The position numbers were made by a program, and so were the translations under genes. 64,000 nt of DNA from Synechococcus sp. JA-2-3B'a(2-13) (lineage in GTDB: Bacteria > Cyanobacteriota > Cyanobacteriia > Thermostichales > Thermostichaceae): assembly GCF_000013225.1 (NCBI RefSeq), contig NC_007776.1, positions 1,197,277 to 1,261,276 on the forward strand, written 5' to 3'. Positions 34,191 through 39,462 of the stretch are shown here, piece by piece; position 1 is the first letter of the stretch; every line of letters begins with the position of its first letter. The notes beneath the pieces were generated by a model, which searched no databases, was not told the origin of the DNA, and was given only the letters and a program-made list of their open reading frames with translations.

Positions 34191-35510
34191 CTAGGCGGAT
34201 TTTTGGAGGATCCACGCCGCTGCCTGTTCGCCGCTGCGCAGGGATCCCTCGATGCTGCTCTGGTGAGTGTACTCTCCAGCCCAGAGAAGGCCTGGCAGGC
34301 CGCTATGGGTGGGAACCAAATGCTGCTGAAAGCCGGGGGGTTGTACAAACTGGGCAAAAGGGATCCGGTACACCCGCAGCAGGCGCAGTTGCTCCAAGGG
34401 GGCTTTATCGCTACGCGACGCTGCCGCGACGGGGAAGTAAGTTTGCAGCTCGGCCTGGCAGGCTTGGGCCAGTTCCTCGTCCCTCAAGGGGGGATCCCCT
34501 AGCACCACCACAGAGTACAGGTGTTGGCCAGGAGGAGCCAGCGCCGGGCTGATGCGGGTAAGTTGGACCCAATGGTTGATCCAGCCCTGGCCGGTGGCGT
34601 TGAGGTACAAGTAGGCGCCGCGGCTGAGGGAAAAGGGGGCGCAGAAGTAGAGACAGGTCACCGCTCGCCCCTGGGTGGGAATGGGGGTGGGGGCTTGAGG
34701 GCACAGCTCCGCCTGCCAGGCCCGTGCCTGAGGGGCATCAGTAGCACAAACTACCCACTCGGCAGGGATCTCTTCACCCTTGGCGGTGCGGATCCCGCGC
34801 ACTTTCCCGTCTTCTGCCAGGATGCGCTCCACCGGGGTTTGGTAGCGAATCTGTTCGGGGGACAGGTGACCGGCCAGTTGTCGGGCCAGTTCTCCCATGC
34901 CCAAGGCCGGGGTGACAATGGATCCCTCGGCCATCATCTTGAAATAAAAGGCAAAGAGGCGGGCGCTACTGCCCAGATCCGGATCTAGAAGGATCCCGCG
35001 GAAAAAGGGGTAGAAAAAGTGCTGGCAGATCTGTTGGGAAAAGCCGTACTGCTCCAGAAACTCCCGCAGCGAGCAATCGGATCCCCCTAGCCCTTCTTGA
35101 AAAACCTGCTCCGGGCTGCGGCGCGCCAGCTCGGATCGCAATTGCAGCACCTTGAGCTTGTCCCCAAAGCTGGCCAAGGGGTTGAGCAAAGAGGGGAGAA
35201 GGCTGGACAGATCCCGTAGGGGATCCCCCAACAGCCAGCAGCGACCGGGTTGAGCCAAAATAGCGCCGGGCCGGTAGGGACGGGGATCGAGCTTGCCTAG
35301 ATCCAAATGCTGTCGCACTTTGGGATAGGCGGTGAACAGCACCTGAAAACCGCGATCCAGGCGAAAGCCATCCACCTTGTCGGTACGCACCCGCCCCCCA
35401 GGGCCGTCGCTTTTTTCCAGAACCAGGACATCCCTCCACCCCGCCTGGCTCAGCACTTTGGCGCAAGCCAAGCCGGCCAGCCCCGCCCCAATGATGACAA
35501 CTTTGCCCAT
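34191..35510 (-). CDS. FAD-dependent oxidoreductase (amine oxidase / phytoene-desaturase-like)
   Basis: A 439-residue flavoprotein from ATG 35508-35510 (MGKVVIIGAGLAGLACAKVL). The N-terminus is a classical Rossmann FAD motif GAGLAGL with a second Glu-containing segment (VLEKSDGPGGRVRTD). The C-terminal FAD site is LLWAGEYTHQSSIEGSLRSG, typical of the amine oxidase/carotenoid desaturase superfamily. The substrate is not evident. Element copy B begins one base upstream of its start codon, so the original promoter and ribosome site are displaced. The short repeat at 34408-34431 lies inside the frame (peptide VAAASRSDK). Confidence 0.88.
   Translation of the reverse strand: MGKVVIIGAGLAGLACAKVLSQAGWRDVLVLEKSDGPGGRVRTDKVDGFRLDRGFQVLFTAYPKVRQHLDLGKLDPRPYRPGAILAQPGRCWLLGDPLRDLSSLLPSLLNPLASFGDKLKVLQLRSELARRSPEQVFQEGLGGSDCSLREFLEQYGFSQQICQHFFYPFFRGILLDPDLGSSARLFAFYFKMMAEGSIVTPALGMGELARQLAGHLSPEQIRYQTPVERILAEDGKVRGIRTAKGEEIPAEWVVCATDAPQARAWQAELCPQAPTPIPTQGRAVTCLYFCAPFSLSRGAYLYLNATGQGWINHWVQLTRISPALAPPGQHLYSVVVLGDPPLRDEELAQACQAELQTYFPVAAASRSDKAPLEQLRLLRVYRIPFAQFVQPPGFQQHLVPTHSGLPGLLWAGEYTHQSSIEGSLRSGEQAAAWILQKSA
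34408..34431 (-). repeat. Copy 1 of a short GC-rich dispersed repeat inside a coding region
   Basis: Carries TCGCTACGCGACGCTG then CCGCGACG. It is translated within the FAD oxidoreductase as VAAASRSD. Related copies are at 35939-35962, 36909-36932 and 47786-47809, the last in the opposite orientation relative to its gene. Confidence 0.75.
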
Positions 35511-35794
35511 GCTGATACATTTACGCTGAACACTGCTGAACATCACTGTTCAACTATGCAGCGATAGCATTCTGTTTGTTTCCAACCAGAATGGCGGTAT
35601 CCCGCAAAGCTTTGAGTAGAATACCCAAAGCGCAGTTTCCGTGTCGTCTTACTACCAATTTTCTGCTTTGCTTTGGCTACCATGTTGGCAGACTCGAAAG
35701 TAAACAGAAAGATCAACTGGTAGTAATCCGTACTGAACATATTATACATTATTTTCAGTATAGTTGAGCTTATTATTGACTAGAGTCATGCTCT
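35511..35794 (-). mobile_element. 284-bp non-autonomous element, copy B (inverted copy of 30911-31194)
   Basis: Inverted duplicate of copy A; no mismatch was found by eye. Its right end (GCTGATACATTT on the plus strand, from 35511) directly abuts the ATG of the FAD oxidoreductase. Its left end is at 35794, 66 bases from the 3' end of the pseudokinase gene. The identity of the two copies means recent transposition or conversion. Confidence 0.88.
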
Positions 35795-35822: not shown

Positions 35823-35864
35823 TATCTGCTTGGATCCCACTAGTATCTGCTTGGATCCCACTAG
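35823..35864. repeat. Perfect 21-base tandem duplication overlapping the pseudokinase stop codon
   Basis: Copies at 35823-35843 and 35844-35864 are identical, each TATCTGCTTGGATCC followed by CACTAG. The second includes the complement of the TAG stop (35861-35863) of the pseudokinase gene, so the duplication leaves the encoded protein unchanged. The unit contains the iterated palindrome GGATCC. Confidence 0.9.
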
Positions 35865-38140
35865 GGCTGAGCTGGGTCGGCTGGCCCCCAAATGCGAATT
35901 GAGCCATCGGCGCCACCACTGAGAAGGGTCTGCCCATATCGCTGCGCGACGCTTCCGCGACCGGGGCCAAACAGCAAGACGCTCACCATCCAAGTCTGGC
36001 CGCCCAGGGTGCGCAACTGTTCTCCGCTGCGCAGATCCCAGAGCTTAATCTGGTGAGCGCGGTAATCGGTGCCGCTGGCGAGCAAGCGGCCATCAGGGCT
36101 GAGGGCAAGGGCGGCCAAGCCGGACAAAGTCTGGGGCAAGGTGCGCTCCAAGGATCCCGTGCCCAAGTTCCAGACCAAGATGCCACCGGTACTGCCGGCG
36201 AGCAAATAGCGGCCATCTGGACTCAGAAGCACCTGCTCGATGGGGTAGTCGGCCTTTAGGGTTTCCAGCAAGGCCCCGCTGCCAGGATCCCAAAGGTGAA
36301 CGGTGGGATCTCCATTGGCGGCCACCAAGATCCAAGGGGGGATCCCTTCAGACTGGCGGGAAGTATTCATACGGGTGGGTCTTGGGCCAAAGGCCACCGC
36401 TGTAATGCCTGCCCTCTGAGGGGTATCCTGGGCGGCGGCAGCAGTGTGAGGCGATAGGGTGCGGATCAACTGGCCGTTGTCGGCCTGCCAAAGGCGGATG
36501 GTGCGGTCGGCGCTGCCACTGGCAATCCAACGACCATCGGGGCTAATGGCGACACTGTTGATCAACCCGGTGTGCCCTTGCAACTGCAGCCGCGCCAGCA
36601 CATCCCCAGGCGAGAGAGCCGGATCCCCCAGGGTCGCCAGATCCCAGACCCGTGCCGTCTTGTCTGCCCCCCCACTCACCAAAAAGGTACCATCTGGGCT
36701 GATGGCCAGTGCCTCAACGGATCCCTCGTGGCCTGCCCAGCTCTGGAGCAGTTGGCCAGCCTGGGGATCCCAAAGCCGGATCACGCCGTCGTCTCCCCCG
36801 GCAGCAAGGAGATTTCCATCCGGGCTGATGGCCAGAGCAGTGACGGCGACAGGGCCTTCCAGCGTAGCCTTGAGCTGCAAAGACTTGGCCCAGTCTGCCG
36901 GGTCGTTATCGCTACGCGACGCTTCCGCGACCGTGACGGCGGTGGGGACGGAGGCATGAGAACCGTTCTCGCGAGTAGGATGGAGTCCCAGGCCGTTGCG
37001 CTTTGCCGGGCCAGAGGATCCCGTTCTCGTGAGGGGGACAGAATCCTTGGGCTCCCCCCGCAGGCCAAGGTTCGCCCTCATCTGCCATACCCCTGCCACC
37101 GTCAACGCCAGCAAAGCCGCCAAGCTGCCTCCTGCCCAAACCGGTGGGATCCGGGGACGCGCCCGCAGCGATACCGGAGAACGCGGTGGGGTGGTTGGCT
37201 CCTGTAAGGGCTCGGCGGCGACAGGGCTGGGCTGGGACAGGAGTTCGGCGGCAGGGGGGCTCTCGGCGGGGGGCAAAGCCTGCAAAGCGGCCAGAGCTGC
37301 TGTTGCTGAAGGAAAGCACTGTTGTGGGTTGCAGCTCACCAAACGATCCAGAAAAGCAGCAAAAGGAGCGCTAGTAGAGGCCAGATCGTGCCAGCGCAAC
37401 TCCCCCGTCAACGGGTCGCGAAACAGCTTCTGGGGCGGGATCCCGCAGAGGGCCTGCAGGGCAATCAGCCCAAGAGCATAGAGGTCGCTGCAATGCCTGG
37501 GGCCATAGGGGTTCCCGAAGCCAGAGCCGGAAAAAGCCAGACCCTGTTCCTCACCCCCCCACTTCAACAACACCCATCGGCCATCCGCCTGACGGTAGAT
37601 CAAGCGAGAGGGCTGCAGGTTGCAGCAGCTCACCCCTTCCTCATTCAGGAAGGCCAAGGTTTGCAGCACATCCTGCAACAAGGCTCGTACCTCAGCCTCT
37701 GTCCAGTCGTGCCCCCAATGGCAGTGCATTTGGCGGGACGGAGTCGTTAGCTGGCCCCTCTCGGTTGCGTTACCTAGCAATAGAGCTTGTTCCAGGGTGG
37801 GCCCTTCAACCCATTCTTCCACCCAATAAAACTCCCCCTCTTGCTCAAAGCAGGCCAACAGGCGGGGGATACCCTCGTGGGATCCCAGGTGCTCCCGCAG
37901 CGCCACTTCTTGCTGAAAGAGATGCCGTAGCGAGGCGGAGTCCTCACTGTGTTCGCGGTGCGGAGCATTTTGGCCGGCCTGCCAGCGTTTGAGCACCACC
38001 CGAAGCCGCTCAGGATGATGGCTATCCTGTGCCAAGTAGGTTTGTCCGCTGGATCCCAGTGCTTCCAAGATCTGATAGCGGCCACCCAGGGTCTGCCCTA
38101 CCATGGGGAGAGTGCGAACCTTTTCCTTCCGACCCATCAT
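35861..38140 (-). CDS. Pseudokinase-WD40 protein: Hanks-type kinase fold without catalytic residues, membrane helix, WD40 propeller
   Basis: A 759-residue protein. Residues 14-290 form a Ser/Thr kinase fold (RYQILEALGSSGQTYLAQD; Lys51 in VVLKRW). The catalytic HRD is replaced by Cys172-Cys173-Asn174 (SCCNLQPSRL), its downstream Asn by Arg179, and the DFG Asp by Lys193 (LLKWGG), so phosphotransfer is very unlikely. One membrane helix is at about residues 333-353. Residues 425-759 are at least six WD40 repeats (ISPDGNLLAAGGDDGVIRLWD). The start may also be ATG 38104, closer to the conserved MVGQTLGGRYQIL. The gene carries two copies of the short GC-rich repeat. Confidence 0.92.
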   Translation of the reverse strand: MMGRKEKVRTLPMVGQTLGGRYQILEALGSSGQTYLAQDSHHPERLRVVLKRWQAGQNAPHREHSEDSASLRHLFQQEVALREHLGSHEGIPRLLACFEQEGEFYWVEEWVEGPTLEQALLLGNATERGQLTTPSRQMHCHWGHDWTEAEVRALLQDVLQTLAFLNEEGVSCCNLQPSRLIYRQADGRWVLLKWGGEEQGLAFSGSGFGNPYGPRHCSDLYALGLIALQALCGIPPQKLFRDPLTGELRWHDLASTSAPFAAFLDRLVSCNPQQCFPSATAALAALQALPPAESPPAAELLSQPSPVAAEPLQEPTTPPRSPVSLRARPRIPPVWAGGSLAALLALTVAGVWQMRANLGLRGEPKDSVPLTRTGSSGPAKRNGLGLHPTRENGSHASVPTAVTVAEASRSDNDPADWAKSLQLKATLEGPVAVTALAISPDGNLLAAGGDDGVIRLWDPQAGQLLQSWAGHEGSVEALAISPDGTFLVSGGADKTARVWDLATLGDPALSPGDVLARLQLQGHTGLINSVAISPDGRWIASGSADRTIRLWQADNGQLIRTLSPHTAAAAQDTPQRAGITAVAFGPRPTRMNTSRQSEGIPPWILVAANGDPTVHLWDPGSGALLETLKADYPIEQVLLSPDGRYLLAGSTGGILVWNLGTGSLERTLPQTLSGLAALALSPDGRLLASGTDYRAHQIKLWDLRSGEQLRTLGGQTWMVSVLLFGPGRGSVAQRYGQTLLSGGADGSIRIWGPADPAQP
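35939..35962 (-). repeat. Copy 2 of the short GC-rich dispersed repeat, inside the pseudokinase gene
   Basis: The core is TCGCTGCGCGACGCTTCCGC then GACC. It is read in a different frame from copy 3, giving GRGSVAQRYG in the last WD40 repeat region. Confidence 0.75.
36909..36932 (-). repeat. Copy 3 of the short GC-rich dispersed repeat, inside the pseudokinase gene
   Basis: TCGCTACGCGACGCTTCCGC then GACC; read as VAEASRSD (residues 404-411) in the linker between the membrane helix and the WD40 domain. Confidence 0.8.
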
Positions 38141-38184
38141 GCCATGGCGACGTGAGACTCAGGCTAACCGTTCACCAAATTTTC

Positions 38185-39462
38185 GGGCTGGAGGCCCGCA
38201 CCATAGCCGCAGGCTTGGTGTCGGGAGGAAAGCCCTCCTCCATATAGGTTTGCTGGTCAAAAGTCTGGATGAACTACAATAAGCCTATGAGCCAGGCCAT
38301 ATCTGTACGTTGCAAGCTGATAGTCCCTGTAGAGTTGCGTCAAGAAATTGACCGCACCCTGCAGAGGTTTGCTGACGCTTGCAACCAGATTCTGGATACC
38401 GCCAAGCGTGAGAAGTGCTGGAACACCGTCAAGCTGCATCACCTGGTCTATCGACCGGTAAGAGCAGCAACGGGGCTGAAAGCCAACCACGTCTGTCAGG
38501 CGCTCCGTCGGGTGATTAGCAATGCCAAGGCGGTGAAGCAAGTCCACAAGTTCCGCCCCACCAGTCTGACTTTGGACGCTCGTACTTTTAAGTACCGAGA
38601 GTCCGACCAGGCCGTGGGCGTGACCCTGATGAGCGGACGGGTTTGGCTCAAGCTCAAGATTGGCGGTTATCAAATCGCTTTGCTGCGGGGGCAAACGCCC
38701 ACCAGCGCTACTCTGTCCAAGACCAAGCAAGGGGAGTACTACATCAACATCGCTGTTGAGCTGGATACTCCCCCGACTGGCAAAACTCCAAAGGTAATCG
38801 GAGTTGACTTGGGCAGGCGGGATATCGCCACCGCTAGCAATGGACGCTCTTGGAGTGGAGAGCACATCCAGGCCGTCCGTGACCGGTTCAGCCGTGTACG
38901 CGCCAAGGTTCAATCCAAACGCACTCGCAGCTCTAGGAGGCTGCTGAGAAGGCTCTCTGGGAGAGAACGGCGCTACCAGACATGGCTGAACCATAACATC
39001 AGCAAAACCTTGGTCAGGGATGCCCAGGCTATTGGTGCGGCACTGGCTTTTGAAGACTTGACAGGCATCAGAGATTGCTTGAATCAGAAGTCTCGAAGTA
39101 AGGCTGAGCGGCGCAGGACTAACAACTGGGCGTTCTACCAGCTCAGGATGTTTGTAGCCTACAAGGCTGCCATTGCTGGAGTGCCTGTGGTGCTGGTGCC
39201 GCCTGCCTACACCAGTCAGACCTGCCACAAATGCCTGCACATCCACCCTGAGCGGGGTAAGTCCTACCGCAATGGTAAGTCGTTCAAGTGTGGGCACTGC
39301 GGGTGGGAAGGGGATGCTGACCATAACGCTGCTCAAGTAATCTCTCTCCTTGGGGCGACTGTAAACTCGCCTGAAATTCCGAAACTTAGCTGTCCTCTGG
39401 GGCCGCTAGGGATTGGGATAAAGCCCGCACCCTGCGCATAGCGCGGGTGTCGGGTAGTTTAC
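38185..39462 (+). mobile_element. Orphan TnpB element 1 (IS200/IS605 superfamily, IS1341-like)
   Basis: Contains one tnpB gene and no tnpA. The left hairpin is at 38195-38225: CCCG-CACCA-T-AGCC-GCA-GGCT-TGGTG-T-CGGG. The right hairpin is at 39424-39454: CCCG-CACCC-T-GCGC-ATA-GCGC-GGGTG-T-CGGG. Both have the same bulged T on each side. After the right hairpin comes TAGTTTAC (39455-39462), shared with element 2, which is taken as the right boundary; the left boundary is uncertain by about ten bases. GGATCC is absent from the whole element, unlike its surroundings. Confidence 0.85.
38287..39441 (+). CDS. tnpB: TnpB RNA-guided nuclease-like protein, element 1
   Basis: A 384-residue TnpB. The start MSQAISVRCKL (38287) is chosen because the segment TACAATA...ATGA is shared with element 2 at the same spacing. 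The RuvC triad is intact: Asp174 (GVDLGRRDIA), Glu256 (FEDLTGIRD) and Asp345 (GDADHNAA). The zinc ribbon has Cys313, Cys316, Cys335 and Cys338 (QTCHKCLHIH and KCGHCGW). TnpB uses an RNA from the element's right end to guide cleavage. The stop codon lies in the loop of the right hairpin, so protein and guide RNA would overlap. No TnpA is adjacent. Confidence 0.93.
   Translation: MSQAISVRCKLIVPVELRQEIDRTLQRFADACNQILDTAKREKCWNTVKLHHLVYRPVRAATGLKANHVCQALRRVISNAKAVKQVHKFRPTSLTLDARTFKYRESDQAVGVTLMSGRVWLKLKIGGYQIALLRGQTPTSATLSKTKQGEYYINIAVELDTPPTGKTPKVIGVDLGRRDIATASNGRSWSGEHIQAVRDRFSRVRAKVQSKRTRSSRRLLRRLSGRERRYQTWLNHNISKTLVRDAQAIGAALAFEDLTGIRDCLNQKSRSKAERRRTNNWAFYQLRMFVAYKAAIAGVPVVLVPPAYTSQTCHKCLHIHPERGKSYRNGKSFKCGHCGWEGDADHNAAQVISLLGATVNSPEIPKLSCPLGPLGIGIKPAPCA

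Follow-up and report, generated by a model that had tools for sequence, protein, structure and literature searches.

The kinase-WD40 gene and its product

The window, the whole 64,000-nucleotide stretch of the Synechococcus sp. JA-2-3B'a(2-13) genome that was analyzed, contains on its minus strand an open reading frame of 759 codons without internal stops (positions 35861–38140). A preliminary description made from the letters alone had given these limits, which proved exact; the frame lies on the minus strand. Translation probably starts at 38104 (Met13), because orthologues start at the Met of the motif MxGQTL. Hereafter, G000 denotes the genome of the window (3,046,682 bases, one contig) and G003–G007 five further genomes of the genus, each species being represented by one genome. 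Downstream of the frame and on the same strand lies a gene encoding a flavin amine oxidase/phytoene-desaturase-like protein (34191–35546, minus strand; PF01593), with which co-transcription is possible. This gene also adjoins the orthologue in G004, G003 and G005. Upstream, an inserted element bearing tnpB (38177–39458; tnpB ORF 38269–39441, plus strand; Pfam OrfB_IS605 and Cas12f1-like TNB) separates uvrA from the kinase-WD40 gene, whose immediate neighbours in the window are uvrA, tnpB and the amine oxidase gene. G004 lacks the element and has uvrA immediately upstream of the orthologue. About 45 long tnpB homologues are present in the genome of the window, 7 of them nearly identical to the copy at 38177–39458. 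No defence genes were seen directly beside the kinase-WD40 gene, and an anti-phage role was discarded, the PADLOC matches obtained (PD-T4-6, MkoA and mad6) looking like generic kinase similarity.

As had been proposed beforehand, the product was confirmed to join a kinase fold at its N-terminus to a WD40 propeller, here found to have seven blades, by way of a single predicted membrane helix; this layout is supported by Pfam, AlphaFold2, Foldseek and hydropathy. The kinase half (residues 14–292; 37265–38101, minus strand), which was aligned with 40 cyanobacterial kinases, gave a sub-threshold match to Pfam PF00069 (27.7 bits versus a cut-off of 31.7). AlphaFold2 predicted a kinase fold for it (mean pLDDT 84.8), in a model that was built with homologues and is biased towards that fold, and the top Foldseek matches to this model were Staphylococcus Stk1/PknB and Mycobacterium PknB (E ~1e-12). 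The fold is of the Hanks type, with two lobes and with the alpha-F Asp (D219) kept in all six orthologues. The predicted helix (residues 334–356; 37073–37141, minus strand) is preceded by a conserved LQEPTTPPRS and an Arg-rich stretch. It is moderately hydrophobic, the Kyte-Doolittle maximum in a 19-residue window being a mean of 1.70 at residues 334–352, and a hydrophobic segment occurs at the matching position in 5 of 5 orthologues. The WD40 domain (residues 421–754; 35879–36880, minus strand) is intact, as first described: Pfam finds six PF00400 stretches (E 1e-54), and the full-length model shows seven four-strand blades, the propeller being closed by the N-terminal strand 421–428. Net charge next to the helix is +4 towards the kinase and +1 towards the propeller, and the propeller is devoid of Cys in all six orthologues; both traits fit the predicted topology, with the kinase half in the cytosol and the propeller outside the cytoplasm. 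Among the best PDB matches to the propeller was that of the PkwA-type kinase-WD40 proteins (PDB 5yzv), in which a kinase is likewise joined to a propeller; PkwA comes from a different phylum.

With a kinase fold, a membrane helix, seven WD40 blades and orthology to live members, the protein belongs with the STK-TM-WD40(7) proteins, or cbSTKII-WD40(7), an established cyanobacterial class (PMC2176072) with which it shares domain order, number of repeats and kinase subfamily. The comparators of this class found in our analysis also carry a membrane helix but keep HRD and DFG, both of which the window protein has lost. A 2007 survey counted eight STKs for JA-2-3Ba(2-13), none of them with WD40 (PMC2176072), so the survey seems to have overlooked the window gene or left it out. 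There is some precedent for a degenerate kinase linked to WD40, as Ava_3867, a WD40-type STK of Anabaena variabilis, shows some deviation from the canonical motifs (PMC2176072).

Catalytic residues in the window protein and across the genus

The residues of the catalytic site are those read in the preliminary description (all coordinates in this section are on the minus strand). The loop that reads HRDLKPxN in live kinases is CCNLQPSR (residues 172–179; 37604–37627), with C172, C173 and N174 in place of HRD and R179 in place of the metal-binding Asn, and alignment and codon table place K193, W194 and G195 (37556–37564) at the position of DFG. With N174, R179 and K193 at these sites, and only Lys51 of the VAIK motif (37988–37990) retained among the catalytic positions, the domain does not have the residues of an active Ser/Thr kinase. 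Losses beyond those first described comprise a two-residue deletion in the Gly-rich loop (GSSGQT at 38039–38056, versus GSGGFGQT in live orthologues), a change of the catalytic-loop Lys to Gln, the reduction of the activation segment to a remnant (residues 196–217; 37490–37555) with 22 gap positions relative to live G005, the disappearance of the APE Glu, and the replacement of the conserved alpha-I Arg by Cys275 (37316–37318). In kinases, this Arg usually forms a salt bridge with the APE Glu. Residues 199–214 are the lowest-confidence stretch of the AlphaFold2 model. A misread frame or an overlooked motif was ruled out: the orthologues align unambiguously across the catalytic loop, and the domain contains no second HRD or DFG, which excludes an alignment artefact as the source of the substitutions.

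The kinase half contains 8 Cys, whereas 45 related kinases have 0–4 (mean 1.8). Of the eight, six (172, 173, 217, 232, 270 and 275; 37316–37627) are common to G000 and G004 and are located in the dead catalytic loop, in alpha-F and in the alpha-H/I region.

The gene has an orthologue in 5 of the 5 other genomes of the genus, with 58–85% identity across the six; orthology was assigned by similarity and partly by synteny with the adjoining amine oxidase gene. A related-locus search of genome contigs returned only the G004 genome (Synechococcus sp. M44_DOE_062). In G005 and G006, HRD, Asn, DFG and Lys are all intact. G007 (L008) carries HRN through a GAT to AAT change, the remaining catalytic positions being intact. 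G003 (2,932,766 bases) shows HGN, C and GLG at the respective sites, together with Arg for the VAIK Lys, Ala for the alpha-C Glu, and an activation segment that is nearly gone. G004 has CCN, R and KWG as well as Arg for Lys, and G000 has CCN, R and KWG with Lys51 and the alpha-C Glu (Glu78; 37907–37909) retained. Thus, CCN and KWG are common to the window protein and its nearest orthologue. Gene trees unite G000, G004 and G003 in a fully supported clade, referred to below as the eroded clade. The Asp to Asn change of G007, known from a single assembly, seems to be independent of this clade because both possible sisters of G007 carry Asp; reversion or recombination is also possible. The protein tree leaves the placement of G007 unresolved and the DNA tree puts it beside G006; the uvrA tree lacks G007, whose contig ends there, and the independence of its change is therefore judged from the gene tree.

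Of 54 cyanobacterial kinase domains that were aligned, 48 are not orthologues of this gene, and the Asp residues of HRD and DFG were both present in 48 of these 48. STK-TM-WD40 proteins of one other genus keep HRD and DFG in 14 of 14 genomes, and other families yielded membrane STK-WD40 proteins whose catalytic sites are intact. Across 286 cyanobacterial STKs, conservation amounts to 100% for the His and 97.2% for the Asp of HRD, 98.9% for the Asn, 96.1% for the beta-3 Lys and 97.2% for the DFG Asp (PMC2176072). Another kinase group of the genus (L027, L028 and L029) has HGD for HRD, with the catalytic Asp kept.

The ATP-anchoring Lys51 and the persistence of the fold had been stressed in the preliminary description. 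Both are present in the window protein; the weight given to Lys51 was misleading, this residue being Arg in both of the closest orthologues, G004 and G003. Given this Arg, a shortened Gly-rich loop and the missing DFG Asp, nucleotide binding is unlikely, and for the eroded clade as a whole we infer that ATP binding is improbable. To judge from the residues, catalysis has almost certainly been lost.

Selective constraint on the two halves

Substitution rates were estimated with a branch-omega codon model of the MG94 type, with a transition/transversion ratio and position-specific base frequencies. For the kinase half, omega was 0.39 in the eroded clade versus 0.21 in the other clade (p 0.002), and was below 1 at p 6e-12; at the G000 and G004 tips it was 0.55, below 1 at p 0.005. 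Removal of gap-flanking columns gave 0.31 versus 0.16 (p 0.011), and 0.42 for the tips (below 1 at p 0.004). In G007, omega was low (0.15). Values for the linker and helix were 0.43 in the eroded clade versus 0.23 in the other. The propeller is under purifying selection, with omega of 0.22 versus 0.16, a difference that was not significant, and of about 0.2 for the two tips, G000 and G004. When gap-flanking columns were left out, its values were 0.19 versus 0.11 (p 0.027), and some of the relaxation may therefore extend to the gene as a whole or to the lineage. The branching order within the other trio hardly altered these results. Pairwise comparison of G000 and G004 (NG86) gave dN/dS of 0.42 for the kinase half, 0.19 for the propeller, 0.096 for uvrA and 0.095 for the amine oxidase gene, and of 0.065 and 0.077 for two live kinase paralogues. 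The kinase half thus evolves about six times faster than these paralogues in the closest genome pair, and about twice as fast as in the other clade; its constraint is weaker but real.

The preliminary description had offered two readings, an allosteric scaffold and a dead copy. The first may hold, on a kinase half whose constraint has clearly weakened. The second, taken as a pseudogene, was ruled out by the undisrupted frame and by omega significantly below 1, and neutral decay is not seen; moreover, the substitutions are common to the nearest orthologue. The kinase-half omega below neutrality and the propeller omega of about 0.2 indicate that the propeller is conserved and that the domain attached to it is a true pseudokinase specific to this lineage, a kinase fold without catalytic motifs that is conserved as such. 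The open frame was rejected as evidence for a function of the kinase half, since the downstream propeller enforces it. Likewise, the perfect identity of codons 169–196 in G000 and G004 was not accepted as showing that a new site had been selected: this stretch has no synonymous differences either, and chance, recombination or recent conversion is the likelier cause. As judged from sequence conservation, what is retained of the kinase half is for the most part the structural core together with the alpha-F/alpha-G side: identity between G000 and live G005 is 17/18 in alpha-F and 19/21 in the alpha-G region, versus 7/15 in the catalytic loop and 6/13 in the DFG strand.

Possible roles of the dead kinase domain

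We favour, with a probability slightly under one half, a reading in which the protein now works without phosphoryl transfer, the kinase half serving as a cytosolic docking module on a propeller that binds a ligand or partner. The ancestor would have been a cyanobacterial receptor-type Ser/Thr kinase composed of kinase, membrane helix and seven-bladed WD40 domain. The lineage of G000, G004 and G003 would then have lost catalysis and, by deletion, the activation segment, with helix and propeller kept. The propeller, for which a position beyond the cytoplasmic membrane is predicted, may still bind a ligand or partner protein, and the folded dead kinase domain would remain in the cytosol as a hypothetical docking module, acting through the alpha-F/alpha-G side, the best-kept face of the C-lobe, by analogy with EssB/YukC and similar membrane pseudokinases. 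EssB/YukC of type VII secretion (PMC12599244) is functionally the nearest described protein: it is a cytosolic pseudokinase with the three motifs, the Gly-rich loop and the activation loop degraded and with a single membrane helix, a layout resembling that of the window protein, whose topology is predicted. In contrast to the window protein, EssB has no WD40 propeller. It belongs to a type VII secretion locus; next to the window gene lie uvrA, tnpB and the flavin amine oxidase gene. Two further cases are cyanobacterial. SpkE (Slr1443) of Synechocystis is a kinase homologue without the catalytic Asp for which no kinase activity was found, but it is classed as cbSTKI-other and has no WD40 domain (PMC2176072). 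The CP1 pseudokinases (PMC12599244) are cyanobacterial and vary in motif loss, but lack membrane helices and are linked to COG3899; membership of this family was ruled out by helix 334–356 and by WD40 in place of COG3899.

The data fit a docking module, and they fit nearly as well a tolerated relic, in which only the membrane-anchored propeller would be functional and the kinase half, with no role of its own, would be slowly eroding, kept since frame, fold and membrane insertion must stay unharmed. We regard this as a real possibility, if a less probable one. The weak constraint on the kinase half (0.42 versus 0.065 and 0.077 in live paralogues) counts against docking, the conservation of alpha-F may reflect folding alone, and no partner gene was identified. 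Erosion is also suggested by the tip omega of 0.42–0.55, by the match of only 13 of 28 residues to live G005 from catalytic loop to DFG, by insertions of up to 24 residues and the loss of the activation segment, and by the far better preservation of the propeller. Against a relic speak an omega still significantly below 1, the retention of a 280-residue domain over a dS of about 0.9 (G000–G003) despite partial deletions, and an alpha-F/alpha-G side almost the same as in live orthologues.

That the whole gene is being lost in the window strain, and is expressed poorly or not at all, is unlikely. The edge of the 1.28-kb tnpB element lies 37 bases upstream of the ORF and its insertion may have removed the native promoter, but the 759-codon frame is intact and at both tips, G000 and G004, the propeller remains constrained. 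Probably recent, the element is uninformative about the catalytic loss, since G004 and G003 share that loss without it. We consider it quite improbable that catalytic loss was repeated and possibly favoured, in a receptor that had worked without phosphorylation before, and that the dead site of G000 and G004, with its shared cysteines, became a redox- or metal-responsive switch. On this reading, the Asp to Asn change in G007, otherwise intact and with low omega, seemingly independent of that of the eroded clade, would point to a receptor that had no need of phosphorylation by then. It is very improbable that some catalysis persists or has changed in kind, as in SelO or SidJ, kinase folds that use ATP otherwise. 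Lys51 and Glu78 are retained in the window species, but G004 and G003 have Arg for Lys51, G003 has Ala for Glu78, and the Gly-rich loop is shortened; the metal-binding Asn and the DFG Asp are gone with no acidic substitute, and SelO and SidJ retain their metal ligands.

Bacterial pseudokinases have been little studied by experiment (PMC12599244). Within one genus, the gene described here occurs in a live form (G005, G006), with a single change (G007) and in an eroded form (G003, G004, G000). Its stable second domain serves as an internal control, and live kinase paralogues provide an external one. This makes the order of catalytic loss, and any prior non-catalytic role, directly testable, and the series is a good natural example of a signalling enzyme turning into a non-enzyme.
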